From: Modestobacter sp. VKM Ac-2982
GTDB taxonomy: Bacteria > Actinomycetota > Actinomycetes > Mycobacteriales > Geodermatophilaceae
Direction: 5' to 3'
DNA: 64,000 nucleotides
NCBI RefSeq assembly: GCF_026967935.1
Contig: NZ_JAPVBL010000006.1
Location: 234,051 to 298,050 of the forward strand
This document shows positions 2,380-24,035 of this stretch, one piece after another. The first letter of the stretch is position 1; every line of letters begins with the position of its first letter. Made by a program: the position numbers and the translations under genes. The notes under the pieces are model-generated. The model worked only from the letters and a program-made list of their open reading frames with translations. It was not told the origin of the DNA and did not search any database.

Positions 2380-3516
2380 TCAGCGCGACACGACCCGCTG
2401 CCGCTCCACCCGCCACCAGGCCACCACGTCCTGCCCGACGGCCAGCTGGGTCTCCGACGCGTCCAGCCGGGCCCGCCCGACCACGTCGCTGCTGCCATAG
2501 GAGAGGACGACGTTCCGGTAGGAGCCCAGGTAGTGGACGTCGGTGACCCGCGCCGGCACCGCGTTCGCACCGGCCGGCACCTCGTCGGCCCGCTGGGCGA
2601 TGCGCACGTCCTCCGGCCGCACCATCAGCGCCGCGTGCTCTGCGGCCCGCGCCCGGTCGGACACCGTGCGCGGCTCCACCGCCCAGGTGCGGTCGCCCCA
2701 CACCACGGTGCTGCCCGGCGCCTGGGCCAGCTCGAAGACGTTCGAGTCGCCCAGGAAGGTCGCGGTGAAGAGGGTCTCCGGCGCCCGGTACAGCGTCTCC
2801 GGGCTGCCGACCTGTTCGATCCGCCCGCTGTTGAACAACGCGATCCGGTCCGAGAGGCTCATCGCCTCCTCCTGGTCGTGGGTGACGAAGACGAACGTCG
2901 AGCCCACCTCCCGGTGGATCCGCTGGATCTCCGCCTGCAGCGCGCCGCGCAGGTTGCGGTCCAGTGCGCCCAGCGGCTCGTCCAGCAGCAGCGCCTTCGG
3001 GTCGAAGACGATGGCGCGGGCCAGCGCCACCCGCTGCTGCTGCCCGCCGGAGAGCTGGGACGGCACGTTGTCGTCGCGCCCGGTGAGCTGGACGAGCTCC
3101 AGCACCTCGGCCACCCGGCGGGTGATCTCCGCCTTGGGCACCTTCCGCTCCCGCAGCGGGTAGGCGACGTTCTGCGCCACCGTCATGTGCGGGAACAGTG
3201 CGTAGTTCTGGAACAGCATCCCCAGGTCCCGCTTGTGCGGCGGGAGGCTGCTGACGTCGTCCCCGTTGAACGCGATGCGCCCCGAGGTGAGGGTCTCGAA
3301 GCCGGCGATCAGGTTCAGGGTCGTGGTCTTGCCGGAGCCGCTGGGACCGAGCAGGGTCATAAACTCCCCCGGCTCGATGGTCAGCGAGACGCCGTCGACG
3401 GCCGGCACGGCCAGGCCGTAGTCCTTCACGACGTCGGTCAGCCGGATCTGCGTCCCCGCCCGGGGGACGGCGGGCGCGGCCGTCGGGGCGACGGTGGACG
3501 TGGTGGTGGCGGGCAT
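2380..3516 (-). CDS. PotA-like ABC transporter ATP-binding protein
   Basis: This is the cytoplasmic ATPase of the polyamine-type importer, 378 residues. The start is the ATG at 3516 (MPATTT), preceded by TAGGAG about 5 bases upstream. Motifs in order: Walker A LLGPSGSGKTTTL, Q-loop MLFQNYALFPHMT, signature LSGGQQQRVALARA, Walker B ALLLDEPLGALD and H-loop FVFVTHDQEEAMS. The C-terminal third is the TOBE regulatory domain (about residues 290-370, with LMVRPEDVRI), characteristic of PotA/FbpC/UgpC-type ATPases. It begins 8 bases after the permease stop, so it is the last gene of the IclR-permease-permease-ATPase operon before the hairpin. Confidence 0.93.
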   Translation of the reverse strand: MPATTTSTVAPTAAPAVPRAGTQIRLTDVVKDYGLAVPAVDGVSLTIEPGEFMTLLGPSGSGKTTTLNLIAGFETLTSGRIAFNGDDVSSLPPHKRDLGMLFQNYALFPHMTVAQNVAYPLRERKVPKAEITRRVAEVLELVQLTGRDDNVPSQLSGGQQQRVALARAIVFDPKALLLDEPLGALDRNLRGALQAEIQRIHREVGSTFVFVTHDQEEAMSLSDRIALFNSGRIEQVGSPETLYRAPETLFTATFLGDSNVFELAQAPGSTVVWGDRTWAVEPRTVSDRARAAEHAALMVRPEDVRIAQRADEVPAGANAVPARVTDVHYLGSYRNVVLSYGSSDVVGRARLDASETQLAVGQDVVAWWRVERQRVVSR

Positions 3517-3524
3517 GCCAGCTC

Positions 3525-4379
3525 CTATCGGTTCTTGCGCCGGCTGCCCAGCAGCAGCGGGACGAGACAGATGACGGTGACCGCGGTGACCACCAGGCTG
3601 GAGGTCGCGGCGATGGTCGGGTCGACCTCGAAGGTGACGCTGTTGAACATCTGGACAGGCAGCGTCTGGAAGGTCGGGGAACGCAGGAACAGCGCGATGA
3701 CCACCTCGTCGAAGGAGGTCACAAAGGCGAAGATCGCGCCGGTGAGGATGCCCCGGCTGATCAGCGGCATGGTCACTCGCAGGAAGGTCCGCAGCGGGTT
3801 GGCGCCCAGCGACGCCGAGGCCCGCAACAGCTTGGGGTCGAAGCCGCTCAGCGCACTGGTCACCGACACCAGCACGAACGGCATGCCGATCGCGGCGTGC
3901 GCGAGCACGTACCCGGTGAAGGAGCCCACCAGGTGCCACTTCAGGAAGGAGATGTAGACGACGACCGCGATGACGATGCCCGGCGTGACGATCGAGATCA
4001 TCAGCACCGTGCGGGCCAGCCGGGCCATCCGGCCGGTCAGGTTGTGCAGCCCGACCGCCGCAGCGGTGCCGACCACGGTGGCCAGCAGCGCGGCGACCAC
4101 CGCGACGGCGACCGAGTTGCGCAGCGAGGTCAGCCAGACCGGGTCGGTGAAGAAGTTCCGGTAGAGCTGCAGCGTGAAGCCCTCGGGCGGGAAGCTGAAC
4201 GTCGAGGACTCGCTGAAGCTCATCGGGATGACGAACAGCGTCGGGAGCACGAAGTACAGCGCGACCAGCGCCACCACCACCCGCAGCCACCACGGGACGG
4301 CGTCCACGCTGCGCTGGCGGCGTCGGGCTGGCCGGGCAGCGGGCGCCCGGGGGACGTCGAGCTCGGGTGCCGTGGTCAT
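3525..4379 (-). CDS. PotC-like ABC transporter permease
   Basis: This 284-residue inner-membrane permease has about six transmembrane helices; the first is WWLRVVVALVALYFVLP. The binding-protein-dependent transport signature lies near residues 170-215, with the EAA-type loop around ASASLGANPLRTFLRV, which docks on the ATPase. The N-terminus carries about 25 Ala/Pro/Arg-rich residues before the first helix. Its ATG overlaps the stop of the upstream permease (ATGA, 4376-4379), showing translational coupling. It is probably the PotC partner in a PotB/PotC heterodimer. Confidence 0.92.
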   Translation of the reverse strand: MTTAPELDVPRAPAARPARRRQRSVDAVPWWLRVVVALVALYFVLPTLFVIPMSFSESSTFSFPPEGFTLQLYRNFFTDPVWLTSLRNSVAVAVVAALLATVVGTAAAVGLHNLTGRMARLARTVLMISIVTPGIVIAVVVYISFLKWHLVGSFTGYVLAHAAIGMPFVLVSVTSALSGFDPKLLRASASLGANPLRTFLRVTMPLISRGILTGAIFAFVTSFDEVVIALFLRSPTFQTLPVQMFNSVTFEVDPTIAATSSLVVTAVTVICLVPLLLGSRRKNR

Positions 4380-5278
4380 CGCTGCTCCTTGGTGCCGGTG
4401 GTGGCGACGACGCCGATCGCCGAGACGGTGCCGCCGATGCGGTTCGCCCAGGCCACCAGCACCAGGGTGATCACCAGCACGAGCATCCCGAGGGCGCCGG
4501 CACCGGCGAAGTCCAGGAGCTGGGTGGTGCGCTGGGCCAGCAGCTGGGCGATCAGCGACTCCTGCGGAGTGCCGAGCAGGGCGGGGGTGACGTAGAAGCC
4601 CAGGCTCAGCGTGAAGACCAGGATCAGGCCCGCGGTGACGCCGGCCCGGGACAGCGGCCAGTAGATCTTCCAGAACGCCACCAGCGGGGAGGACCCGAGG
4701 CCGCGCGCAGCCAGCAGCAGCCGCCGGTCGATGCCGCTCAGCGCGCTGAACAGTGGCAACACCATGAACGGCAGCAGCACCTGGCTCATCGCGATGGCGA
4801 CGCCGGAGACACTGCCGTAGAGGACGACGTCCAGGCCGAAGAGCTGGAAGAACTCGTCGACCGGCCCGCCACGCTGCAGGATCAGGATCCAGGCGAAGTT
4901 GCGGGCCATGACCGAGGTCCAGAACGGCACCAGCACGATGACCAGCAGGACGGCCCGCATCCGCGGCCCGACCCGGGTCATCACGTAGGCGTAGGGGTAG
5001 CCGAGCACGAAGGCGATCACGGTGACCAGCAGGGCGGTCTGCGCCGTGCGCAGCAGCACCGTGAGGGTGACGCCGTCGGTGAACAGCAACCGGTAGTGCT
5101 CGTCGGTGAGGTCGGGGGCGCCGACGCTGCGCAGGAAGCTCTGCGCCAGCGGGATCAGCAGCACCACGCCGAGCAGTCCGAGGGCCGGGACGAGCAGCAG
5201 CCAGTGCGGCCGCGGCGCTCGGCGCCCGGCCGGCGCCGACCGGCCGGGGTCGGTTCGTTCGCGTGCGAGGACTGTCAT
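4376..5278 (-). CDS. PotB-like ABC transporter permease
   Basis: This 300-residue permease is read from the ATG at 5278 (MTVLARERTD). GGAAGG lies about 10 bases upstream, and the longer reading from 5347 would run into the preceding regulator gene. The first helix (HWLLLVPALGLLGVVLLIP) is followed by a periplasmic segment and five further helices. The EAA loop is at AARGLGSSPLVAFWKIYWP. The gene begins 19 bases after the IclR stop, so regulator and transporter probably share a transcript. Ligand specificity is not readable from the permease. Confidence 0.92.
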   Translation of the reverse strand: MTVLARERTDPGRSAPAGRRAPRPHWLLLVPALGLLGVVLLIPLAQSFLRSVGAPDLTDEHYRLLFTDGVTLTVLLRTAQTALLVTVIAFVLGYPYAYVMTRVGPRMRAVLLVIVLVPFWTSVMARNFAWILILQRGGPVDEFFQLFGLDVVLYGSVSGVAIAMSQVLLPFMVLPLFSALSGIDRRLLLAARGLGSSPLVAFWKIYWPLSRAGVTAGLILVFTLSLGFYVTPALLGTPQESLIAQLLAQRTTQLLDFAGAGALGMLVLVITLVLVAWANRIGGTVSAIGVVATTGTKEQR

Positions 5279-5297
5279 GGGAGGTCCACCTTCCGAC

Positions 5298-6113
5298 TCA
5301 GCCGGCGACCATGGAGCCGAGCGTGGAAGCCGCCTCCTGGAGGGCATGGACCCGCTCCGCGGAGTCGGAGGGGTTGAGCATCGTGCTGGTGCCGATCAGC
5401 GCCATCGCCGCCTGGACGTCGTAGGTCGCCAGCACCGGCACCGCGACCGACGCCAGGCCGACGCGGTCCAGGTCGGCCCAGGCGAGCCGGTGCCGCCGGA
5501 CGTCGTGCAGCGCGCTGCGCTCGACGGCGGCCTGGGCCTCGGTGAGCGTCGCGTGCGCCCGGGTCACCGCGCTCGGGTCGGACTGGAACGCCAGCAGCAC
5601 GCGGGTCTGCGCCGCCTTCACCTCGAGCACCGTGCCGACCCGGACGGTGAGCAGGATCGTCGTCTGCTGCGGCTCCTCGACCAGCGTCACCACGGCGCCG
5701 GTGCGCCCCAGGAAGCTGAGCACGGCGGTCAGGCCGGTGGTGTCGGCCAGCTGGCGCATGATCGCCGGCGCCAGGGTGATCAGCTGCTGGCGGACCGAGA
5801 CCAGCGCCGACAGCTGGTCCAGCAGCGGCCCCGGACCGGCGGTGGCGCTGAGGAACCCGGCCCGCTGCAACGACTGCAGGTAGCGGTGCGCGGTGGTGCG
5901 GTTGAGGCCGAGCCGCTCGGCGACGAGTGGCGCGGTCAGCCGGCGGGTGTCCTGGTCGAGCAGCGCCAGCACGTTCGCGGCCCGGTCGATCGCCTGGATC
6001 AGCGCCCGTTCCGAGTCGGCTCCCATCGGCGCCCGACTCGCCGGCCGTACCGGCTGTTCCGGCGGGGCCGGCCGTGCCGGCGGCGCCTGCTGGCCGCGGA
6101 CAGCGACCTCCAT
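5298..6113 (-). CDS. IclR-family regulator heading the ABC transporter operon
   Basis: The product is 271 residues. A Pro/Ala-rich tail of about 30 residues is followed by the winged helix-turn-helix (residues 38-95, with VAERLGLNRTTAHRYLQSL) and an IclR effector-like domain. A GGGGGTGGG ribosome-binding site precedes the ATG at 6113. The layout and the sequence of the HTH (LNRTTA[HY]RY) resemble the IclR at 226-978, so the two may be paralogues answering related ligands. It is divergent from the seven-gene catabolic operon, and the 193-base space between them contains a 35-bp dyad. It is the likely local regulator of both directions. Confidence 0.88.
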   Translation of the reverse strand: MEVAVRGQQAPPARPAPPEQPVRPASRAPMGADSERALIQAIDRAANVLALLDQDTRRLTAPLVAERLGLNRTTAHRYLQSLQRAGFLSATAGPGPLLDQLSALVSVRQQLITLAPAIMRQLADTTGLTAVLSFLGRTGAVVTLVEEPQQTTILLTVRVGTVLEVKAAQTRVLLAFQSDPSAVTRAHATLTEAQAAVERSALHDVRRHRLAWADLDRVGLASVAVPVLATYDVQAAMALIGTSTMLNPSDSAERVHALQEAASTLGSMVAG

Positions 6114-6183: not shown

Positions 6184-6218
6184 GTTCAGGATGCAATCAC
6201 CGATTTCGCATCATGAAC
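6184..6218. promoter_or_regulatory. 35-bp inverted repeat, candidate IclR operator in divergent promoter region
   Basis: The arms GTTCAGGATGC (6184-6194) and GCATCATGAAC (6208-6218) match at 10 of 11 positions across a 13-base spacer. The site lies about 20 bases upstream of a candidate -35 for the rightward operon, an activator-type position. It has the same length and ends as the dyad at 2162-2196. Confidence 0.6.
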
Positions 6219-6236: not shown

Positions 6237-6266
6237 TGGACATGGTCGATCGGCCGTGCGTAGGTT
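6237..6266 (+). promoter_or_regulatory. Candidate promoter of the seven-gene catabolic operon
   Basis: TGGACA (6237-6242), an 18-base spacer and TAGGTT (6261-6266, TAnnnT type) lie between the dyad and the first gene. Transcription would start near 6273, leaving a leader of about 34 bases with GAGGAGG before the ATG at 6307. This is pattern-based only. Confidence 0.4.
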
Positions 6267-6306
6267 GAACAAACGCAACGCATACCGAACACGAGGAGGT
6301 CCCCGG

Positions 6307-7227
6307 ATGGTCACCGCGGAGGCAGACACCCAGCCGTCGCCGGCACTGCTGAAGGTCTTGGACGGCGTCGTCGACCTCCACTGCCACTCCGGCCCCAGCC
6401 CGTTCCCGCGGCGCCTGGACCACGTCGAGGCCTCCTACGAGGGCGCGCGGATCGGCATGCGGGCGGCGCTGGTGAAGTCCCATCACCACAACACCGTGAT
6501 GGACCTGCTGGCCATGGGCCCGCGGCTGGCGGAGGCCCCGACGCCGATGTTCGGCGGGGTGGCGCTGAACTCCGAGGTCGGTGGGATGAACCCCTCGGCC
6601 GTCGCAGTGGCGATCAACATGGGTGGCAAGTGCGTCTGGGGGCCCACCGTGTCGGCCGCCCAGCACATCGAGGCGCACCGCCACGACGACGGCTTCCCGC
6701 ACAACACCGGCAACCTCTACGAGCAGGAGGTGTCGGTCTTCGACGCCTCCGGTGAGGTGTCCGAGGCCACCGACCTGGTCACCCGGCTGGTCGGCGACGC
6801 GGACATCCTGCTCACCGGCGGCCACCTGGACGGCGACTCGATGGTCGCCTTCTTCGAGACGGCCCACCGCAACGGCGTCCGGCGGATGCTCATCCACCAC
6901 CCGGACTACATCATCAACGCCTCCGAGACCGCGATCGAGAAGATGATCGGCCTCGGTGCCTTCGTCGAGCACGAGCTGTCGATGTACGACCCGCGGGTCA
7001 AGGCCCCGGACTGGCCGATCGAGCAGCTCGTCGAGTGGATCCGCAAGATCGGCCCCGAGCACACGGTCATCGACTCCGACCTCGGCCAGGTGGGCAACCC
7101 GCTCCCGGTCGACGCCTACCTGCTCGTCGTCCAGCAGCTGCTCGACCACGGCATCCCCGCTGCCGACATCCGGCAGATGATCTGCCGCAACACCGCCTTC
7201 CTCCTCGGCCTGGAGGAGACCAACTGA
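6307..7227 (+). CDS. DUF6282-type amidohydrolase-like protein
   Basis: The product is 306 residues from the ATG at 6307, which follows GAGGAGG at 6293-6299. The protein looks like a metal-dependent TIM-barrel hydrolase: DLHCHSGPSPF near residue 25 supplies the HxH ligands, KSHHHNTV near residue 57 and MLIHHPDY near residue 195 give further histidines, and DSDLGQ near residue 258 is a candidate for the usual late Asp. I recognise this as the DUF6282 group, whose substrate is not established as far as I know. It is the first gene of an overlapping operon with BKACE and aldolase genes. Hydrolysis of a lactone, amide or ester early in that pathway is a reasonable inference but unproven. Confidence 0.75.
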   Translation: MVTAEADTQPSPALLKVLDGVVDLHCHSGPSPFPRRLDHVEASYEGARIGMRAALVKSHHHNTVMDLLAMGPRLAEAPTPMFGGVALNSEVGGMNPSAVAVAINMGGKCVWGPTVSAAQHIEAHRHDDGFPHNTGNLYEQEVSVFDASGEVSEATDLVTRLVGDADILLTGGHLDGDSMVAFFETAHRNGVRRMLIHHPDYIINASETAIEKMIGLGAFVEHELSMYDPRVKAPDWPIEQLVEWIRKIGPEHTVIDSDLGQVGNPLPVDAYLLVVQQLLDHGIPAADIRQMICRNTAFLLGLEETN

Positions 7228-8180
7228 TGCGCACGGCGGAGAAGGTCATCATCACGACTGCGGTGACCGGGTCGGTCAACGTCCCGTCGCAGAGCCCGTA
7301 CCTGCCGCTGTCGGCCGACCAGGTGGTCGAGGCCGCGCTCGGGGCGATCGAGGCCGGGTCGGCCGTCGTCCACCTGCACGCCCGGCACCCGGACGGCCGG
7401 CCGGCGTGGGAGCCGGAGGTGTTCGAGCAGATCGTCCCGCGGATCACCGAGGCCACCGACGCGGTCATCAACATCACCACCGGCGGCTCGTCGGCGATGA
7501 CCATGGAGCAGCGGCTGGCCGGGGCGACCCGGTTCCAGCCGGAACTCGCCTCGATGAACATGGGGTCGATGAACTTCGTGTACTCGGGGATCGCCGACCG
7601 GGTCACCGACTGGAAGCACGACTGGGAGCGCCCGTACGTGCTCAACACGTACTCCCATCCGTTCGTCAACAGCTTCGACCGGATCGAGCACACCCTGCGC
7701 ACCCTCGGTGCGACCGGCACCCGCTTCGAGTACGAGTGCTACGACATCGGCCACCTGTACTCCCTGGCCCACTTCGTGGACCGGGGCCTGGCCCCGGCTC
7801 CCCTGCTGATCCAGGGGGTGTTCGGCATCCTCGGCGGCATCGGCGCCGACCACGAGAACCTCGAGCACATGGTCCGGATCGCCGACAAGCTCTTCGGCGA
7901 CGACTACTCCTTCTCCGCCTTCGCCGCCGGCCGCGACCAGATGCAGTTCGCCACGCACAGCGCCTGGCTCGGCGGGCACGTCCGAGTCGGGCTCGAGGAC
8001 AGCCTCTGGCTCGGCAAGGGCCGTCTCGCCGAGAGCAACGCCCAGCAGGTCACCAAGATCCGCGGCGTCGTCGAGGACCTCGGCAAGCAGATCGCCACCC
8101 CGGCAGAGGCCCGCGCGATGCTTGCGCTGCGCGGCCGCCCCACCAGCACCGACGCTCAGAAGGGCAGTGCTCTCGCATGA
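7227..8180 (+). CDS. BKACE family beta-keto acid cleavage enzyme (formerly DUF849)
   Basis: The product is 317 residues; its ATG at 7227 overlaps the previous stop by one base. BKACE enzymes are zinc-dependent and convert a beta-keto acid plus acetyl-CoA to acetoacetate and a shortened CoA thioester; the founding member is 3-keto-5-aminohexanoate cleavage enzyme of lysine fermentation. Family marks seen are VHLHARHPDGRP (zinc HxH near residue 50), NITTGGSSAM, RFEYECYDIGHL (conserved Glu) and the C-terminal HVRVGLEDSLWLGKG ... SNAQQVTKI. The family is diverse in substrate, so the beta-keto acid cannot be named here. Co-transcription with an SDR that could make a keto group fits the reaction. 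Confidence 0.9.
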   Translation: MRTAEKVIITTAVTGSVNVPSQSPYLPLSADQVVEAALGAIEAGSAVVHLHARHPDGRPAWEPEVFEQIVPRITEATDAVINITTGGSSAMTMEQRLAGATRFQPELASMNMGSMNFVYSGIADRVTDWKHDWERPYVLNTYSHPFVNSFDRIEHTLRTLGATGTRFEYECYDIGHLYSLAHFVDRGLAPAPLLIQGVFGILGGIGADHENLEHMVRIADKLFGDDYSFSAFAAGRDQMQFATHSAWLGGHVRVGLEDSLWLGKGRLAESNAQQVTKIRGVVEDLGKQIATPAEARAMLALRGRPTSTDAQKGSALA

Positions 8181-9088
8181 CCACCTACGCCGCCGACGAC
8201 ATCCGGTCGAACCTGGCCATCGCCACACCGACCCGGACGGTCGACCCCAGCACGCCGATCCGGCCCTCGCAGTGGATCGAGTTCCTGTCGCTCCCGCCGA
8301 CCGAGACCGCGCCGAACGGCAGCCGCACCTGGATCGCCCGGGCGGCGAACCTGGTGATTGCCTACACCGACGCCAAGGCCGGCGACGTCTTCGCCCGCAT
8401 CGGCCAGCCCGACGAGTACACCGTGCTGCTGTACTCCGACAGCGCCCCGGTGACGGTGACCGCCGACGGCGCCACCGAGTCGGTCGCCGAGGAGGCGCTC
8501 GTCGTCGTCCCGCCCGGGGACAGCGAGGTCCGGGTCGATTCCGACGGCGTGCTGATCCGGCTGTTCTCCACGGTGGCCGACGACCTGACCGCGAGCTCGG
8601 TGAACGCGGCGGTGTACGCCGAGCCCGACCTGCGCGCCGCGCCGATGGTGCCCGGGCCGGACCCGGTCGGCGGCTTCCGGCTCCGGGTCTACCGGCTCGC
8701 CGAGACGCCGATCGCCGAGGGGCGCTTCGGGCGGATCTTCCGCACCACCAACCTGATGGTGAACTTCCTCGCCGAGGAGCCCGCCCCGCGCAACGCGCAG
8801 AAGCTGTCGCCGCACACGCACGAGGACTTCGAGCAGATCTCGCTGGCGGTCAAGGGCCGGTTCGTGCACCACATCCGCTACCCGTGGGGTCCGGACTCGG
8901 CCCAGTGGCGCCCGGACGAGAACCGCGAGATCGCCACACCGTCGATCTGCGTCATCCCGCCGCCGACGGTGCACACCACTCAGGGCGTCGGGCCGCACCA
9001 GCAGCTGATCGACCTCTTCTCCCCGCCGCGTGCGGACTTCGCCGCCTCCGGGTGGGTGCTGAACGCCGACGACTACCCGGCCCGGTGA
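8177..9088 (+). CDS. Bicupin-like protein of unknown function
   Basis: The product is 303 residues and starts at an ATG overlapping the BKACE stop (ATGA). The C-terminal half has a clear cupin: SPHTHEDFEQISLAVKGRF supplies the first-motif histidines and glutamate, and a second motif follows near PPTVHTTQGVGPHQQL. The N-terminal half (DVFARIGQPDEYTVLLY ... VVVPPGDSEV) looks like a second, degenerate cupin without metal ligands. I cannot assign it to a named enzyme. An isomerase, decarboxylase or dioxygenase-like step in the surrounding pathway, or a sensor role, are all possible. The tight overlap on both sides argues that it acts in the pathway. Confidence 0.75.
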   Translation: MTTYAADDIRSNLAIATPTRTVDPSTPIRPSQWIEFLSLPPTETAPNGSRTWIARAANLVIAYTDAKAGDVFARIGQPDEYTVLLYSDSAPVTVTADGATESVAEEALVVVPPGDSEVRVDSDGVLIRLFSTVADDLTASSVNAAVYAEPDLRAAPMVPGPDPVGGFRLRVYRLAETPIAEGRFGRIFRTTNLMVNFLAEEPAPRNAQKLSPHTHEDFEQISLAVKGRFVHHIRYPWGPDSAQWRPDENREIATPSICVIPPPTVHTTQGVGPHQQLIDLFSPPRADFAASGWVLNADDYPAR

Positions 9089-9882
9089 GGACGAGCCGCT
9101 TCCGCGCCGCCCTCGCCGACGAGCGGGGACCCGCGCTCGGCACCTGGGTGAAGCTCCCGGCGACGGAGACCATGGAGCTGATCGCCCTGGCCGGCCTGGA
9201 CTTCGTCGTCATCGACCTCGAGCACTCCCCGCTCGACCTGGAGTCCGCCTCCCGGCTGATCGGGACGGCGCTGCACACCGGGGTCTCCCCCGTCGTCCGG
9301 GTGCCCGACCTGCACCCCGGGCTCGTGCAGCGGGTGCTCGACGCCGGGGCCGAGGGCGTGATGGTGCCGCACGTCGACACCGTCGAGCAGGCCCGCGCGG
9401 CGGCCGCCGCGGTCCGCTTCCCGCCGCTGGGCTCCCGGGGCGTGGGGTCCACCAGCCGGGCCGGCGCCTGGGGCGCGACCCCGCTCGCGGAGTACCTGCG
9501 CTACGGCCAGCAGGAGGTGGTGCTCATCGCGCAGATCGAGAGCGCGCTGGGCGTCCGCAACGCCGGCGCCATCGCAGCCGTCGAGGGCGTGGACGCGCTG
9601 CTGGTCGGTGCCGTCGACCTCTCGGTGAGCGAGGGGAAGACGCCGTCGGACCCGGACGTGGTCGCACTGATCGCCTCCGCCGTCGAGGCCGGCCGGACGG
9701 CGGGGGTACCGGTCGGCAACGCCGGCGGGGCCACCGCCGCCTCGGTGCGCGCCTCCGTCGACGCCGGCTTCACCTTCACGCTGCTCAGCAACGACGCCAC
9801 CCTCTTCGGCACCGCGATGAAGGCGGCCGCCGACGCGGGTCGCACCGTGACCTTCGAACGACCTCGACAGGAGACACCATGA
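9085..9882 (+). CDS. HpcH/HpaI family class II aldolase
   Basis: The product is 265 residues from a GTG at 9085 that overlaps the preceding stop (GTGA). Members cleave 4-hydroxy-2-oxo acids to pyruvate plus an aldehyde using a divalent metal. Visible family marks are VVIDLEHSPLD near residue 40 (catalytic His region), GVMVPHVDTVEQAR, PLGSRGVGS (loop binding the carboxylate), IAQIES (Glu metal ligand) and VGAVDLSVSEG (Asp ligand). Its product aldehyde would be a natural substrate for the aldehyde dehydrogenase two genes on. The exact hydroxy-oxo acid is not readable. Confidence 0.9.
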   Translation: MRTSRFRAALADERGPALGTWVKLPATETMELIALAGLDFVVIDLEHSPLDLESASRLIGTALHTGVSPVVRVPDLHPGLVQRVLDAGAEGVMVPHVDTVEQARAAAAAVRFPPLGSRGVGSTSRAGAWGATPLAEYLRYGQQEVVLIAQIESALGVRNAGAIAAVEGVDALLVGAVDLSVSEGKTPSDPDVVALIASAVEAGRTAGVPVGNAGGATAASVRASVDAGFTFTLLSNDATLFGTAMKAAADAGRTVTFERPRQETP

Positions 9883-10643
9883 GTGAGCCGCGATCACCGC
9901 TGGCGGGCACGGTCGTGCTCGTCGTCGGCGCGAGCGCCGGGATCGGCGCGGACACCGCACGGGTGCTGGCCGCCGACGGCGCCAGCCTGATGCTCGTCGC
10001 CCGGAACGCGGGCCCGCTGGAGCTGCTGACCAAGGAGCTCGTGGCCGACGGGCACGACGTCGCCTGCACCACCGGCGACGTCTCCTCGGCCGGGGACGTC
10101 GCCCGGTTCGTCGACGCGACGGTCGAGCGGTTCGGCCGGCTCGACGGCGCCTTCAACAACGCCGCGATGACCCAGGCCGGCCGGCTGGACCAGGTGGCCG
10201 AGGCCGACTTCGACCAGCTCATGGCGGTGAACGTGAAGGGCACCTGGCTGTGCCTCCGCGAGGAGATCCGGGTGATGGAGCACCAGGGATCGGGCTCGAT
10301 CGTCAACGTGAGCAGCATCGGCGGCCTGCGGGGCAGCTCCGGGATGGGCGCCTACCAGGCCAGCAAGCACGCCGTCATCGGCCTCACCCGCACCGCGGCG
10401 CACGACGTCGGGCCGCTGGGCATCCGGGTGAACGTGATCGCGCCCGGCCCCACCGAGACGCCGATGCTGGCCCAGACCCGGGAGGCGATCCCGGGCGGGG
10501 TCGAGGCCCGGATCGCCGCAACCCCGCTGCGCAAGGTGGGTACCGGCCCCGAGGTCGGCAACGTCGTGTCCTTCCTGGTCAGCGACCGGGCCAGCCACCT
10601 GTCCGGTGTGGTCCTGCCGGTGGACGGTGGGTTCGTTGCCTGA
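9879..10643 (+). CDS. Short-chain dehydrogenase/reductase (SDR)
   Basis: The product is 254 residues with a classical SDR layout: VVGASAGIGADTA (NAD(P)-binding glycine motif near residue 17), NNAAM near residue 90, catalytic Ser in NVSSIGG near residue 142, and YQASK (Tyr/Lys pair) near residues 155-159. The end VVLPVDGGFVA is normal for the family. Its ATG overlaps the aldolase stop and is preceded by AGGAG. In this operon it would interconvert a hydroxyl and a keto group, for example making the beta-keto acid for BKACE. Whether it uses NAD or NADP is not clear. Confidence 0.92.
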   Translation: MSEPRSPLAGTVVLVVGASAGIGADTARVLAADGASLMLVARNAGPLELLTKELVADGHDVACTTGDVSSAGDVARFVDATVERFGRLDGAFNNAAMTQAGRLDQVAEADFDQLMAVNVKGTWLCLREEIRVMEHQGSGSIVNVSSIGGLRGSSGMGAYQASKHAVIGLTRTAAHDVGPLGIRVNVIAPGPTETPMLAQTREAIPGGVEARIAATPLRKVGTGPEVGNVVSFLVSDRASHLSGVVLPVDGGFVA

Positions 10644-11862
10644 GCAGATCGGGACGCTGCGGCTGCCTGCCCGGGTGCACGTCGGCTGGGGTGCGCGTGC
10701 CCAGCTGCCCGAGATCGTCGGCCTGCACGGCCGGCGGGTGCTCGCCGTCGTCGACCCGTTCCTGGTCGGCACCGAACTGCTGACCGGCATCGTCGGTGAG
10801 CTGGCCGGCACCGGGATGGAGGTGCAGGTCTACGCCGACATCACCCCCGAGTTGCCGGTCGACACCCTGACCGCGGCCGCCGAGGTGGCCCGCGACTTCG
10901 GCGCGGACGTCGTCCTCGCGATCGGCGGCGGCAGCGCGCTGGACGCGGCCAAGGTCGTGGCGCTGCTGTCCCGCTACGCCGGCCCGCTGTCCCGCTACTA
11001 CGGCGAGAACCTGGTGCCCGGCCCGGTCGTGCCGATCGTGGCGGTGCCGACGACGGCCGGCACCGGCTCGGAGGTCACCCCCGTCGCGGTCGTGTCCGAC
11101 CCGGACCGCGAGCTCAAGGTGGGCATCTCCAGCCCGTTCCTGGTGCCGGCCGCCGCCGTCGTCGACCCCGAGCTGACCCTCGGCGCCCCCGCGTCGGTGA
11201 CCGCCTTCTCCGGCATCGACGCCCTGGTGCACGCGGTGGAGTCCTACACCGCCCGGGAGCTGGACGTCGACTGGACCGCGCCGCTGCCGGTGTTCACCGG
11301 GCGCAACGCCCTGATCGAGCCGATCGCGCTGCAGGCCGCCGGGCACCTGGGTCCGTGGCTGCCGGTCGCCGTCCGGGAGCCCGGCAACCGGCGCGCCCGC
11401 TCCGAGGTCGCCCGCGGGGCGCTGCTCGGCGGGATCGCGTTCGGGTCGACCGGCACCCACCTGTGCCATGCCCTGCAGTACCCGATCGGCGCGCTGACCA
11501 AGACCCCGCACGGCCTGGGCACCGGGCTGATGCTCCCCTACGTCCTCGACGTGCTCCGGCGGGACGCCGACGTCGCCGCGCGGATCGCCACCCTCGGTGC
11601 GGCGCTGGAGGGCATCCCCGCCAGCGAGGCCTCGGCCGAGCGCACCGTCGCCCGGGTGGTGCAACTGAACGCGGAGATCGGGGTCCCCGCCGACCTGGCC
11701 GCCATCGGCCTCGACCATGACCAGCTGCCGCACATCGCCGACCTCGCGCTGCGGTCAGCGCGGTTGCTGGCGATCGCACCGGTCGACCCCACCCGGGACC
11801 TGCTGCTGGAGGTCCTCGAGAACGCCCTCACCGGAACCCGTACCGATCGGAGCGACGCATGA
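10636..11862 (+). CDS. Iron-containing alcohol dehydrogenase
   Basis: The product is about 408 residues. I chose the TTG at 10636 because GGTGGG sits about 5 bases upstream and the N-terminus then matches the family; a GTG at 10627 is an alternative. It overlaps the SDR stop by 8 bases. Motifs are LAIGGGSALDAAK (nucleotide binding), VPTTAGTGSEVTP, FSGIDALVHAVESY (Asp/His metal ligands), GTHLCHALQYP and TPHGLGTGLMLPYVL (the two further His ligands). Fe-ADH family proteins include maleylacetate reductases and 1,2-diol or semialdehyde reductases. It overlaps the following aldehyde dehydrogenase, so an alcohol-to-acid sequence is plausible. Confidence 0.9.
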   Translation: MPEQIGTLRLPARVHVGWGARAQLPEIVGLHGRRVLAVVDPFLVGTELLTGIVGELAGTGMEVQVYADITPELPVDTLTAAAEVARDFGADVVLAIGGGSALDAAKVVALLSRYAGPLSRYYGENLVPGPVVPIVAVPTTAGTGSEVTPVAVVSDPDRELKVGISSPFLVPAAAVVDPELTLGAPASVTAFSGIDALVHAVESYTARELDVDWTAPLPVFTGRNALIEPIALQAAGHLGPWLPVAVREPGNRRARSEVARGALLGGIAFGSTGTHLCHALQYPIGALTKTPHGLGTGLMLPYVLDVLRRDADVAARIATLGAALEGIPASEASAERTVARVVQLNAEIGVPADLAAIGLDHDQLPHIADLALRSARLLAIAPVDPTRDLLLEVLENALTGTRTDRSDA

Positions 11863-13286
11863 ACCTGCAGACCGACCTCTTCATCGACGGGGAGTGGCGG
11901 CCCGGTTCCGACGGCCGCCGGTTCGACGTCGTCGACCCCGCCGACTCCACGGTCATCGCGGGCTTCGCTGTCGCCACCGAGGCCGACTGCATGGCCGCCG
12001 TGGACGCCGCGGCCGCCGCGCAGGAGGGGTGGGCGGCGACCGCCCCGCGCCGGCGCAGCGAGCTGCTCCGCGCCGCCTACGACGTGCTGACCGAGGAGGT
12101 CGAGCACTTCGCCGAGCTGATGGTGCGGGAGAACGGCAAGAGCTGGTCCGACGCCATGGGCGAGGCCGGCTACGCCAAGGAGTTCTTCCGCTGGTTCGCC
12201 GAGGAGGCCGTGCGGGTGCCGGGTGACTACCGGCTCTCCCCCGCCGGTGACAAGCGGATCGTGGTCGACCGGCAGCCGATCGGCGTCTCGCTGCTGATCA
12301 CGCCGTGGAACTTCCCGGCCGCGATGGCGACCCGCAAGCTCGCCCCGGCACTCGCGGCCGGCTGCACGACCATCCTCAAGCCCGCCCGCGAGACGCCGCT
12401 CACCGCCGCCTACGTCGTCGACGTGCTGCACCGCGTCGGGGTCCCGCGCGGCGTGGTCAACCTGGTGACGCCGATGCCCACCGGCCCGCTGGTGAAGGCG
12501 ATGCTCGACCGCCCGGAGGTGCGGAAGCTGTCGTTCACCGGGTCGACCGAGGTCGGCCGCGAGCTGCTGCACGCCTGCGCCGACCGGGTGGTCAGCGCCT
12601 CGATGGAGCTGGGCGGCAACGCGCCGCTGATCGTGCTGCCCGGCGCCGACCTCGACGTCACGGTGGAGGGTGCGCTGCTGGCGAAGATGCGCAACGGCGG
12701 CTCGGCCTGCACGGCGGCCAACCGCTTCTACGTGCACAGCTCGCTGCACGACGAGTTCGTCGCCCGGATGGACACCGCCCTGGCCAAGGTCGCCGTCGGG
12801 CCGGGGCTGGACCGCGCCAACGACCTCGGCGCCCTCGTGTCGGTGCACGAGCGGGACAAGGTGGCCGGCCTGGTCGACGACGCCGTGGCCGCAGGCGCGA
12901 CCGTCGTCCGCGGCGGCACCGCCTCGGCCGAGGGGGCCTTCTACGACGCGACGCTGCTCACCGACGTGGTGCACGGCTCGTCGATCAGCACGACGGAGAT
13001 CTTCGGCCCGGTGACCGCAGTGGTCCGCTTCGACGACGTGGACGACGCCGTCCGGATGGCCAACGACACGATCTACGGGCTGATGGCCTACGTGTTCGGC
13101 GAGGAGCGGGAGGCGATGGCGGTCGCCCGCCGGATGGAGGCGGGGATGGTCGCGGTGAACCGCGGCGTCGTCAGCGACCCGGCGGCCCCGTTCGGCGGCG
13201 TCAAGCAGAGCGGCCTGGGCCGCGAGGGCAGCTCCGAGGGCATCCTGGAGTTCCTCGAGGAGAAGTACATCGCCCTGACCGCGTGA
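11859..13286 (+). CDS. NAD(P)-dependent aldehyde dehydrogenase (succinate-semialdehyde type)
   Basis: The product is 475 residues, full length for the family. The cofactor-binding and catalytic marks are all present: LITPWNFPAAMATRK near residue 145, FTGSTEVGRELL near residue 225, the general-base Glu in MELGGNAPL, the catalytic Cys in NGGSACTAANR near residue 285, and the C-terminal PFGGVKQSGLGREG. The closest feel is to the succinate-semialdehyde/lactaldehyde dehydrogenase group. Its ATG overlaps the alcohol dehydrogenase stop (ATGA). It is the last gene of the operon, followed by a strong hairpin. Confidence 0.92.
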   Translation: MNLQTDLFIDGEWRPGSDGRRFDVVDPADSTVIAGFAVATEADCMAAVDAAAAAQEGWAATAPRRRSELLRAAYDVLTEEVEHFAELMVRENGKSWSDAMGEAGYAKEFFRWFAEEAVRVPGDYRLSPAGDKRIVVDRQPIGVSLLITPWNFPAAMATRKLAPALAAGCTTILKPARETPLTAAYVVDVLHRVGVPRGVVNLVTPMPTGPLVKAMLDRPEVRKLSFTGSTEVGRELLHACADRVVSASMELGGNAPLIVLPGADLDVTVEGALLAKMRNGGSACTAANRFYVHSSLHDEFVARMDTALAKVAVGPGLDRANDLGALVSVHERDKVAGLVDDAVAAGATVVRGGTASAEGAFYDATLLTDVVHGSSISTTEIFGPVTAVVRFDDVDDAVRMANDTIYGLMAYVFGEEREAMAVARRMEAGMVAVNRGVVSDPAAPFGGVKQSGLGREGSSEGILEFLEEKYIALTA

Positions 13287-22262: not shown

Positions 22263-23792
22263 TCAGCGGTCCTCGGTCAGGGGCTGCAGCAGCTCGGCGG
22301 CCGGCCGGGGGGCGGGCACCGACGACGTCCCGTAGAGGCTGACGCCGGACGGCGCGGCCATCATCGCCTCGAGCTCGCCGGTGTCCAGCATCGGCTCGAT
22401 CGTCTCCAGCGTCGGCTCGATGAGCGCCGGCTCCGCCACGGCGGGACGGCGACCGGCGATCCGCCGGGCCAGGCCGCGCAGCGAGCGGGCCTCCTTCCGG
22501 CGGGCCTTGCGCTCGGCCGCCCGCGCGGCCTCCTCGCGGGCGGCGAGCTCGCGGTCCAGGATCTCCCGCGCCATCCGGTCGGTCTCGGCGGCCACGATCA
22601 GGTCGGCCCGGGCCTGCTGGGCACGCTGCCGGCCGTCGCGGCGGATCTCCTCGGCCTCGACCTCCTCGTCGTCGCGCACCTTCAGCAGCCGGTCGTAGGC
22701 CGTCGGCGGGGCGAAGTTCATCAGCGTCTTCATCAGCACCGGCAGGATCTCCACACTGAGGAAGAGCAGGAACAGCATCACGTGGGCCAGGTGCGCCATC
22801 GGCCGCTCCTCCGACAGCCGGTCGATCGCCTCCAGCCGGGCCAGGATGCCGTCGCTCTGGCTGTTCTCCGCCTCGAACGCCGCCTGCTCGGCCAGCCGCG
22901 CCCCGGTCAGCCGGCTCAGCTCGGCCTGGTCGGTCACCAGCGCGGCCTTGGCCAGCGCCACGCTGCGGGCGGCGGCACCGACGGCGTCCTCCTCGGCGGT
23001 GGTGCGGGTCTGCTGCAGCGCGGCCTCGGCGGCGTCGAGCTCGGCCTTCGCCGTCTCCCGCACCGCTGCCTGCTGCCCGGCCGCCGCCGCAGCGGCGAAG
23101 TACGCCGCGCCCTGGCCCTCGTCACCGGAGCCGCAGGTGCCGTCGAGCTCGCACTGCGCCTTGGCCTGCAGCTCGTCGAACCGGCCCGTCGCCGCGTCGT
23201 ACACGGCCTTCTTGCTGTCCCGCTCGGCCTCCGCCGCCGCCACCCGCGGGTCGGCGTTCGGGTCGGTGGCGCCGCCGCTGGCGACGACGGCCTGGTCCTC
23301 GGCGATCGACTGGGTGAGCATCGGGATCTGCGCGTAGCGGGCGTCGGCGTCCAGCTCGTCGGTGAACTGCTCGGCCGCCTCCGCCTGCAGCGTCACGATC
23401 GTGGCGTCGACCTCCTTGCTGAACACCTGCAGCGTCAGCGGCGTCGAGATGACCGTGCCGAGGACGACGGCCAGCGCCAGCCGCGGCAGGGCCAGCCCGA
23501 GGTTGCGCCGCCAGGACGGGTCGTGACCCATCCCGACCAGCAGCATCCGGTCCAGGTTGAGGATCACCAGCCCCCAGCCCAGGCCGATCAGGACGGCGAC
23601 CGCCCACCAGGCGCCCAGCGCCATGTGCACGGCGAACGCCATCGACAGCGCGGCCAGTGCACCGGTGCTGACCAGCACGCCACCGAGGGCGACGTACTTG
23701 GCGCGCGCGCCGGGGGCGACCCGGAGCAGATCGAGCCGGGCGCCGGCCAGCACGGCCAACCGATCGCCGGCAGAACGGGGGCGGGACCTCAT
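22263..23792 (-). CDS. DUF4407 membrane protein with long central coiled coil
   Basis: The product is 509 residues from the ATG at 23792, with GAGAGGAA about 8 bases upstream. Three hydrophobic helices lie in residues about 25-110 (ALGGVLVSTGALAALSMAFA, AVLIGLGWGLVILNLDRMLL). An Ala/Glu/Asp-rich, probably coiled-coil region (about 125-330) follows, then a fourth helix (HLAHVMLFLLFLSVEILPVL) and a charged C-terminal coiled coil rich in AREEAARAAERKARRK. This order is the DUF4407 pattern. One CELDGTC pair sits in the predicted extracytoplasmic coiled coil and could form a disulfide. Function is unknown; the architecture suggests a structural or signalling membrane scaffold. It is divergent from the NitT/TauT transporter. 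Confidence 0.85.
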   Translation of the reverse strand: MRSRPRSAGDRLAVLAGARLDLLRVAPGARAKYVALGGVLVSTGALAALSMAFAVHMALGAWWAVAVLIGLGWGLVILNLDRMLLVGMGHDPSWRRNLGLALPRLALAVVLGTVISTPLTLQVFSKEVDATIVTLQAEAAEQFTDELDADARYAQIPMLTQSIAEDQAVVASGGATDPNADPRVAAAEAERDSKKAVYDAATGRFDELQAKAQCELDGTCGSGDEGQGAAYFAAAAAAGQQAAVRETAKAELDAAEAALQQTRTTAEEDAVGAAARSVALAKAALVTDQAELSRLTGARLAEQAAFEAENSQSDGILARLEAIDRLSEERPMAHLAHVMLFLLFLSVEILPVLMKTLMNFAPPTAYDRLLKVRDDEEVEAEEIRRDGRQRAQQARADLIVAAETDRMAREILDRELAAREEAARAAERKARRKEARSLRGLARRIAGRRPAVAEPALIEPTLETIEPMLDTGELEAMMAAPSGVSLYGTSSVPAPRPAAELLQPLTEDR

Positions 23793-24035
23793 CCGTGGAT
23801 TCCTCTCGCAGAACGACCACAGGAGGTATCGGTCGCCCACGACCGGGCCGGTACCGGCCAGCGACTGTGAGACATCTCCGACCGCCGGGACACCACGTAA
23901 CGGCACCGTCACGTCTCAGACACCGCTGGCGCACACGCGGAAGGTGAGGTCTCCCTCGAGAACGCACAGCGCGCTCTTCGTCCGCCCGCCGCCCCCCGTT
24001 CGGCGGCCGGACACGTCGGCCTCGAAGGAGACCCA

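Follow-up and report, generated by a model that had tools for sequence, protein, structure and literature searches.

A conserved seven-gene catabolic operon of Modestobacter combining BKACE and a pyruvate aldolase with two uncharacterised protein families

Which compound is degraded by an operon that combines the beta-keto acid-cleaving enzyme BKACE with a pyruvate aldolase, a protein of the DUF6282 family and a bicupin of no named family? Such an operon occupies positions 6307-13286 on the + strand of a 64,000-nucleotide stretch (the window) from Modestobacter sp. VKM Ac-2982 (contig NZ_JAPVBL010000006.1, positions 234,051 to 298,050), the genome of which comprises 4.78 Mb in 14 contigs. An initial annotation had described seven genes with overlaps of 1 to 8 bases at every junction, and the open reading frame coordinates agree, the six junctions overlapping by 1, 4, 4, 4, 8 and 4 bases. 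Judged from its sequence and those of its relatives, namely from gene content, overlaps, conservation, modularity, motif placement and predicted folds, the locus is genuine and conserved as a catabolic unit, and it has a common regulatory motif and two uncharacterised families. We propose, with moderate confidence, that it forms a self-contained unit for degrading a small compound that enters by import and either is a 2-pyrone-like lactone or is converted to one. The enzyme genes are as follows.

6307-7227, + strand: DUF6282 protein with an amidohydrolase fold, a predicted 2-pyrone-type lactone hydrolase (PF19799, fold, gene context, invariant residues)
7227-8180, + strand: BKACE, converting a beta-keto acid and acetyl-CoA to acetoacetate and an acyl-CoA (PF05853, NCBIfam NF053538)
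8177-9088, + strand: bicupin of no named family, a predicted 2-oxo-enoate hydratase/isomerase (AlphaFold2 model, conserved metal residues)
9085-9882, + strand: HpcH/HpaI class II pyruvate aldolase, hereafter HpcH (PF03328, alignments to solved aldolases)
9879-10643, + strand: short-chain dehydrogenase/reductase (SDR), the predicted maker of the BKACE substrate (PF13561, pairing with BKACE)
10636-11862, + strand: iron-type alcohol dehydrogenase (Fe-ADH), TTG start (PF00465/PF25137)
11859-13286, + strand: aldehyde dehydrogenase (ALDH), best family succinate-semialdehyde dehydrogenase (SSADH), under its cut-off (PF00171, TIGR01780)

Pfam scores of the window proteins are 206.3 bits for PF19799 (cut-off 26.8), 329 for PF05853 (cut-off 24.8), 124.5 for PF03328 (cut-off 25), 206.5 for PF13561, 160 for PF00465 and 497 for PF00171; the bicupin lacks a match in either Pfam or NCBIfam. 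The TTG start of Fe-ADH is supported by the recurrence of its 8-base overlap with the SDR gene across related loci (L014, L015, L016, L022, L047, and L051).

To place the operon among its relatives, we compared 80 bicupin loci, chosen as the best of 327 confirmed relatives; all counts are therefore conditional on having the bicupin, and 11 of these loci are shorter than 15 kb. Using identity limits of 25% for DUF6282, 30% for HpcH, 50% for BKACE, and 58% for SDR, we found DUF6282 in 70 loci and HpcH in 67; the complete core (DUF6282, bicupin, and HpcH) occurs in 61, BKACE in 27, and SDR in 12. The closest bicupins belong to 14 loci (the window, L014-L016, L047-L055, and L092). The initial annotation had made its single-pathway idea depend on conservation of the set in related genomes, and the order DUF6282-BKACE-bicupin-HpcH-SDR is retained in 13 of these 14 loci, which we call window-type; they were chosen for holding the set, and their common content is partly a matter of definition. 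All seven genes are contiguous in 8 loci (the window, L014, L015, L016, L047, L049, L050, and L051); in L050, a thioesterase separates HpcH from SDR. Synteny extends over the operon and the importer described below in L014 and L015, from another family, and in L016, from another genus of the same family. Hosts include Acrocarpospora, Herbiconiux, Microbacterium, Nonomuraea, Umezawaea, and Homoserinibacter, and plasmids of Paracoccus, Leisingera, Microvirga, Pseudosulfitobacter, and Parasedimentitalea carry clustered genes for DUF6282, an "aldolase/citrate lyase" and the bicupin (annotated "hypothetical protein"), several together with IclR and TRAP transporter genes. Among 200 genomes of the same order, the bicupin found matches in only 8, the window's own included, which makes the set sporadic; it was present in none of the four same-genus genomes listed in that search. 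In the Homoserinibacter locus (L092, 1121-2136 and 10001-11654), the cyclase, bicupin, and HpcH frames look broken, perhaps through sequencing errors, and the locus is otherwise conserved.

The DUF6282 protein matches no other Pfam family at E ≤ 0.001, including PF04909, which we take to be the family of the LigI-type lactonase of 2-pyrone-4,6-dicarboxylate (PDC), and has no relatives by sequence in the PDB at E ≤ 0.1. A fold search with its model (pLDDT 93.5) placed it closest to phosphotriesterase (PTE)-like lactonases, PHP proteins, dipeptidases, and dihydroorotase. Eight residues (D23, H25, H27, K57, H59, H173, H198, and D258) are invariant in the 70 sequences of the family alignment (A2, 69 proteins and the window's own), and the same metal residues are found both in these bicupin-linked proteins and in 8 sequences of a second type, typified by Thermus and including one from Alicyclobacillus. 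Together, fold and gene context suggest a lactone hydrolase.

The gene context in question was found on plasmid pTHEOS01 of Thermus oshimai (L042, 6357-11023), where DUF6282 lies beside a catechol 2,3-dioxygenase (332 bits against a cut-off of 320), a PIG-L protein, and a CHA aldolase (193.9 bits against 179 in one family and 180 against 304.5 in another), with a 4-hydroxybenzoate 3-monooxygenase nearby. In the lower pathway of 4,5-cleavage, LigI, LigJ/GalB, and LigK/GalC act as lactonase, hydratase, and aldolase, respectively. The Thermus PIG-L protein matches only deacetylase families, all under their cut-offs; by its context it would be GalB-like, a label that we assume for PIG-L proteins next to DUF6282. 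No LigI is annotated in the 16.9 kb around the Thermus DUF6282 gene, the stretch to which this check applies, and because a 4,5-cleavage-type lower pathway thus has no annotated LigI, we propose that DUF6282 supplies the lactonase. A total of 23 DUF6282 places scored over the cut-off and 20 were fetched, all except the window's own, G304, and G314; the combination of DUF6282, PIG-L, CHA aldolase, and an oxidoreductase recurs in 6 of these 20 actinobacterial loci, accompanied by a dioxygenase in five. The clusters of this kind (L042, L136-L140, and L153), all of which except L138 contain an extradiol dioxygenase, likely encode a protocatechuate-type meta-cleavage pathway in which DUF6282 would take the place of LigI.

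The second uncharacterised protein, the bicupin, was modeled with high confidence (pLDDT 95), and a fold search matched bicupins of the PDB; the matches are generic (quercetinase, oxalate decarboxylase, and ureidoglycine aminohydrolase types) and decide nothing on function. In the C-terminal domain, H213, H215, and H266 are invariant and E219 is conserved in at least 90% of sequences, the four residues corresponding to what we take to be the canonical cupin metal motif. One alignment (A1) excludes the two halves of an apparently broken bicupin in Mameliella alba (L033, 8998-9896), which is annotated as two hypothetical proteins; another (A3) comprises 72 of 79 bicupins. As with DUF6282, the neighbors are informative. 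In Rhodococcus opacus strain 9 (L025) the gene order is bphC, alpha/beta hydrolase, bicupin, HpcH, and in Nocardia aurea (L067) and R. opacus G13 (L157) the bicupin and HpcH genes stand beside an extradiol-like gene (27-28% identical to the Thermus enzyme) and a hydrolase gene (41%). The L157 bicupin is 60% identical to that of the window, in a locus with neither DUF6282 nor BKACE; DUF6282 was likewise not found in L025 or L067 within the stretches covered. Since the bicupin is placed where a hydratase is expected together with the aldolase, we predict a hydratase/isomerase. The possibility that it is itself a ring-cleavage dioxygenase is weakened by the extradiol-like enzyme already present in the L025, L157, and L067 clusters.

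Comparison across loci divides the operon, as far as the trees can tell, into two modules, the core trio and a BKACE + SDR pair with a separate history. In L022, L023, L094, L123, and L124, the core genes are 46-54% identical to those of the window, whereas BKACE and SDR reach 79-85%, more than several window-type loci do. The branch carrying these five loci has a length of 0.91 in a tree of the core but of 0.05 in a tree of BKACE + SDR (17 of 29 loci were used for both), and because the trees conflict, we regard the core as the broader unit, to which BKACE and SDR were attached separately. In Alphaproteobacteria, BKACE, DUF6282, and HpcH genes are neighbors in L068, L069, L076, L089, and L099. 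Further genes join in places: a 4HBT_2 thioesterase between HpcH and SDR in L050, L053, and L054, an NQO1-like protein in L058, and CoA-transferase subunit A matches in 7 of the 80 loci (at least 50% identical to a reference in 5). Thioesterase and CoA-transferase genes are as expected if an acyl-CoA and acetoacetate are products. A luciferase-like oxidoreductase gene lies between HpcH and BKACE in L022, L023 (where it is shorter), L094, and L124, three of these four having been run against Pfam. Another arrangement, in L037, L039, and L040, brings together a DHOD-like protein, DUF6282, an aldolase, a single-domain cupin, and SSADH, with a GMC oxidoreductase in L037 and L039; these sets perhaps represent a parallel pathway with a different cupin.

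BKACE exceeds the cut-off of NF053538, named 3,5-dioxohexanoate:acetyl-CoA acetone transferase (480.5 bits against 430), a name that is no proof of substrate, and falls under that of the KCE family NF052387 (218 against 382). In KCE, Glu14 binds the 5-amino group of the substrate (PMC10470551); the equivalent position of the window protein, matched through a common TG motif in two alignments, is Val17. We therefore rejected a 5-amino beta-keto acid as BKACE substrate, which makes the aminated option of the initial annotation unlikely at this step. A second BKACE of the genome (C1:746547), unlinked and retaining the KCE glutamate, was ruled out as part of the locus. Residues 4-251 of the 265 of HpcH align to the GarL structure; the protein has 1dxe and YfaU as solved relatives and stays under the cut-offs of the HpaI equivalog TIGR02311 (164 bits against 368.8) and of the nearby GarL family (148 bits). 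Fe-ADH is near SarD and lactaldehyde reductase, all under cut-offs, and ALDH reaches 489.9 bits against the 646.35 set for SSADH (TIGR01780). The tight SDR-BKACE pairing suggests, by analogy with deoxyribonate degradation, that SDR makes the beta-keto acid for BKACE.

Upstream of the operon, mostly on the - strand, lie the following features.

226-1023, - strand: IclRa, an IclR-family regulator (PF09339/PF01614); an IclR gene lies beyond the solute-binding protein gene in most window-type loci
1037-2170, - strand: solute-binding protein (SBP) of an ABC importer, with relatives of the GABA/agropine/mannopine type (PF13416, PDB relatives)
2162-2196, no strand: weaker second copy of the operator-like palindrome, at the SBP gene start (18 of 26 consensus bases on one strand, 19 on the other)
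2380-3516, - strand: PotA-like ABC importer ATPase, start inferred at 3516 (PF00005, PF08402, start codon)
3525-4379, - strand: PotC-like ABC importer permease (PF00528; PRK09500 under its cut-off)
4376-5347, - strand: PotB-like ABC importer permease, start uncertain, 5' end overlapping IclRb (PF00528)
5298-6113, - strand: IclRb, an IclR-family regulator divergent from the enzyme operon (PF09339/PF01614)
6184-6218, no strand: operator-like 35-bp palindrome GTTCA-N2-ATGCAAT-N5-ATTTCGCAT-N2-TGAAC (cross-locus conservation)
6266-6290, + strand: promoter-proximal repeat TGAAC-N8-CGCATACCGAAC (promoter comparison)

Pfam matches on the - strand thus bear out the linked importer and two IclR regulators noted at the outset, and the description of the importer as PotABCD-like holds in part: the closest solved relatives of the SBP bind GABA, agropine, and mannopine, whereas spermidine/putrescine proteins rank lower. 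Because of these relatives, the imported compound itself may carry an amino group.

The two upstream motifs emerged from promoter comparison across loci; an earlier inverted-repeat scan had given other, weaker repeats. The 4.78-Mb genome, scanned as far as 3 mismatches, contains no match other than the palindrome at 6184-6218; related sites differ by up to 9, and a wider regulon is possible. No match to the pattern arose in 100 shuffles of the window. Scored with the 26-base pattern derived from the window, the palindrome upstream of DUF6282 reaches at least 17 of 26 in 11 of the 13 window-type loci, and of 100 control stretches per locus none attained the observed score in 10 loci and one did in L055. 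For the second repeat, every one of the 13 loci scores 13-17 of 17, a level reached by at most 2 of 100 controls, with the reservation that its pattern was derived from related promoters and the test is partly circular. In 12 of the 13 loci the top-scoring site is 40-46 bases ahead of the start codon, and in 11 it is on the + strand; the L050 match is at 168 bases on the other strand. Weaker palindrome copies recur in other loci: L016 has one at the SBP gene start, L048 has them ahead of both SBP and PotB, and L053 and L055, with relocated importer genes, carry one between SDR and PotB. Copies before both importer genes and enzymes tie the two together and, with the conservation described above, support the initial annotation in treating the locus as a single catabolic unit. 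The IclR proteins are the predicted binders of the palindromes.

How might these parts work as a pathway? The importer would take up the compound, and DUF6282 would open the lactone to a 2-oxo-enoate (or its enol), which the metal bicupin would hydrate or isomerise to a 4-hydroxy-2-oxo acid. HpcH would cleave this acid to pyruvate and an aldehyde fragment, to be oxidised by ALDH (with Fe-ADH acting on an alcohol function) to a 3-hydroxy acid; SDR would turn the latter into a beta-keto acid, from which BKACE would form acetoacetate and an acyl-CoA using acetyl-CoA. The grouping of lactonase, SDR, and BKACE known from deoxyribonate degradation (described below) counts in favor of this scheme. 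IclR regulators at the conserved palindromes would switch importer and enzymes jointly. All substrates, the lactonase and hydratase roles, and the order of steps are predictions. The initial annotation had placed oxidation and BKACE first and the aldolase last; this fits less well than an order beginning with lactonase, bicupin, and aldolase, which we prefer because the trio is the widespread core and BKACE and SDR are the exchangeable part. In its more specific form, which we put forward tentatively, DUF6282 is a new family of pyrone-type lactonases and the bicupin a new 2-oxo-enoate hydratase/isomerase, forming with HpcH a modular three-step route parallel to LigI-GalB-LigK, to which diverse bacteria would attach varied end modules, here SDR-BKACE. 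The logic of lactone hydrolase, hydratase, and pyruvate-type aldolase is that of the protocatechuate/gallate 4,5-cleavage lower pathway (PMC5065237). The window has DUF6282 for LigI, the bicupin for GalB/LigJ, and HpcH for the LigK aldolase, and its operon, unlike that pathway, contains no ring-cleavage gene.

Several observations weigh against this pathway. The DUF6282 and bicupin families are both without any known activity, and the seven-gene set contains no lactone-making enzyme. Of the 80 bicupin loci, 53 are without a BKACE of at least 50% identity and 10 without DUF6282; five of the latter ten are full-length stretches. L052, with a bicupin 64% identical to that of the window, consists of DUF6282-bicupin-HpcH (64-65%) with no BKACE or close SDR on its 9.5-kb contig. 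Conversely, the bicupin occurs in 0 of the 20 other actinobacterial DUF6282 loci, and 14 of these 20 fit neither context used here, many of the stretches being short. The DUF6282 pocket has M65, D66, G176, and H222 here against E65, R66, R176, and R222 in the Thermus type, a difference from which the substrate is expected not to be the dicarboxylate of the latter. Finally, the PF04199 cyclase of related loci is absent from the window locus and from beside L016, and the palindrome fails to exceed controls in L048 (3 of 100 reach its score) and L054 (10 of 100).

These points leave room for other explanations, of which a sugar-acid or deoxysugar-acid pathway, in our view rather unlikely, is the closest contender. 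SDR would make a lactone or 3-keto acid, DUF6282 would open a sugar lactone, the bicupin would dehydrate the product, HpcH would serve as a 2-keto-3-deoxy-acid aldolase, ALDH and Fe-ADH would act on lactaldehyde or glycolaldehyde, and BKACE would act as with deoxyribonate. A precedent exists: a lactonase, an SDR giving a 3-keto acid, and a BKACE yielding acetoacetate and an acyl-CoA degrade deoxyribonate in Pseudomonas simiae, Burkholderia, and Paraburkholderia (PMC6365646). By gene content, the operon has SDR, BKACE, and, in DUF6282, a putative lactonase. The closeness of HpcH to GarL and its solved relatives and that of Fe-ADH to lactaldehyde reductase, both under cut-offs, point the same way. 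However, HpcH, bicupin, Fe-ADH, and ALDH are not among the enzymes named in the available text of that description, and transport there is by MFS proteins, whereas the window locus has an ABC importer (PMC6365646). The bicupin and HpcH also occur beside aromatic ring-cleavage genes, DUF6282 is found in aromatic meta-cleavage clusters, and no sugar or glycerate kinase is among the labeled genes common to window-type loci (two 3-locus clusters are unlabeled).

The conflicting trees, the 53 loci without a close BKACE, and the close core standing alone in L052 could also mean that two independent functions share one operon, the core lactone route and a separate SDR-BKACE route for a beta-keto acid. 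We consider this improbable: BKACE and SDR have been joined repeatedly to the core, including the diverged core of L022, L023, L094, L123, and L124, which indicates a coupled function, and BKACE adjoins DUF6282 and HpcH in the five alphaproteobacterial loci named above. Still further down ranks a phloroglucinol-like breakdown, very unlikely in our estimation, in which a cyclic 1,3-diketone would be opened to a 3,5-dioxo acid and cleaved by BKACE like triacetate. The score over the NF053538 cut-off fits this idea, as does a PF04199 cyclase, found next to 10 of the 13 window-type loci and as a contig-edge fragment in L054; we take this family to be that of the ring-opening enzyme of Clostridium scatologenes. 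The cyclase was nonetheless dropped as a pathway member here, the gene not being found at the window locus; the genome has only a 33% identical homologue, on another contig. The anaerobic pathway of C. scatologenes, in the available text of its description, resembles the present one in using BKACE on a 3,5-dioxo acid and in the cyclase of window-related loci, but names no DUF6282, bicupin, or aldolase (PMC10470551), and it would leave HpcH, bicupin, and DUF6282 without a role.

The preferred lactonase-bicupin-aldolase route also recalls the lower pathway of homoprotocatechuate, in which HpaH and HpaI are followed by SSADH. An HpaI-type aldolase and an SSADH-like ALDH are common to both; the differences are the scores of HpcH (164 against 368.8) and ALDH (490 against 646) and the lack of a known-family hydratase among the seven proteins. 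Within the open literature searched, no description of the whole set was found and no paper names DUF6282, so that the initial claim that no characterised pathway has this combination stands for the full set; it does not for a part, lactonase, SDR, and BKACE being known together from deoxyribonate (PMC6365646). The locus thus brings known chemistries into a new combination that includes two uncharacterised families; it is not a new kind of system.

If the proposal is true, DUF6282 and a bicupin family outside Pfam and NCBIfam each gain their first function, and Thermus and some Actinomycetota are predicted to degrade aromatics with a substitute for LigI. The operon also offers a physiological setting for the BKACE subfamily of BKACE15, a characterised member with no known role in the available text of its report (PMC11961710). 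The operator-like palindrome provides a direct handle on the inducing compound.

Other genes nearby complete the picture of the region. A SnoaL-like gene adjoins IclRa, and upstream of the window start in the same genome (L127, 9681-13537) lie genes for nitrile hydratase alpha and beta and an old-yellow-enzyme gene (PF00724). At 22263-23912, the window encodes a DUF4407 protein (270 bits).

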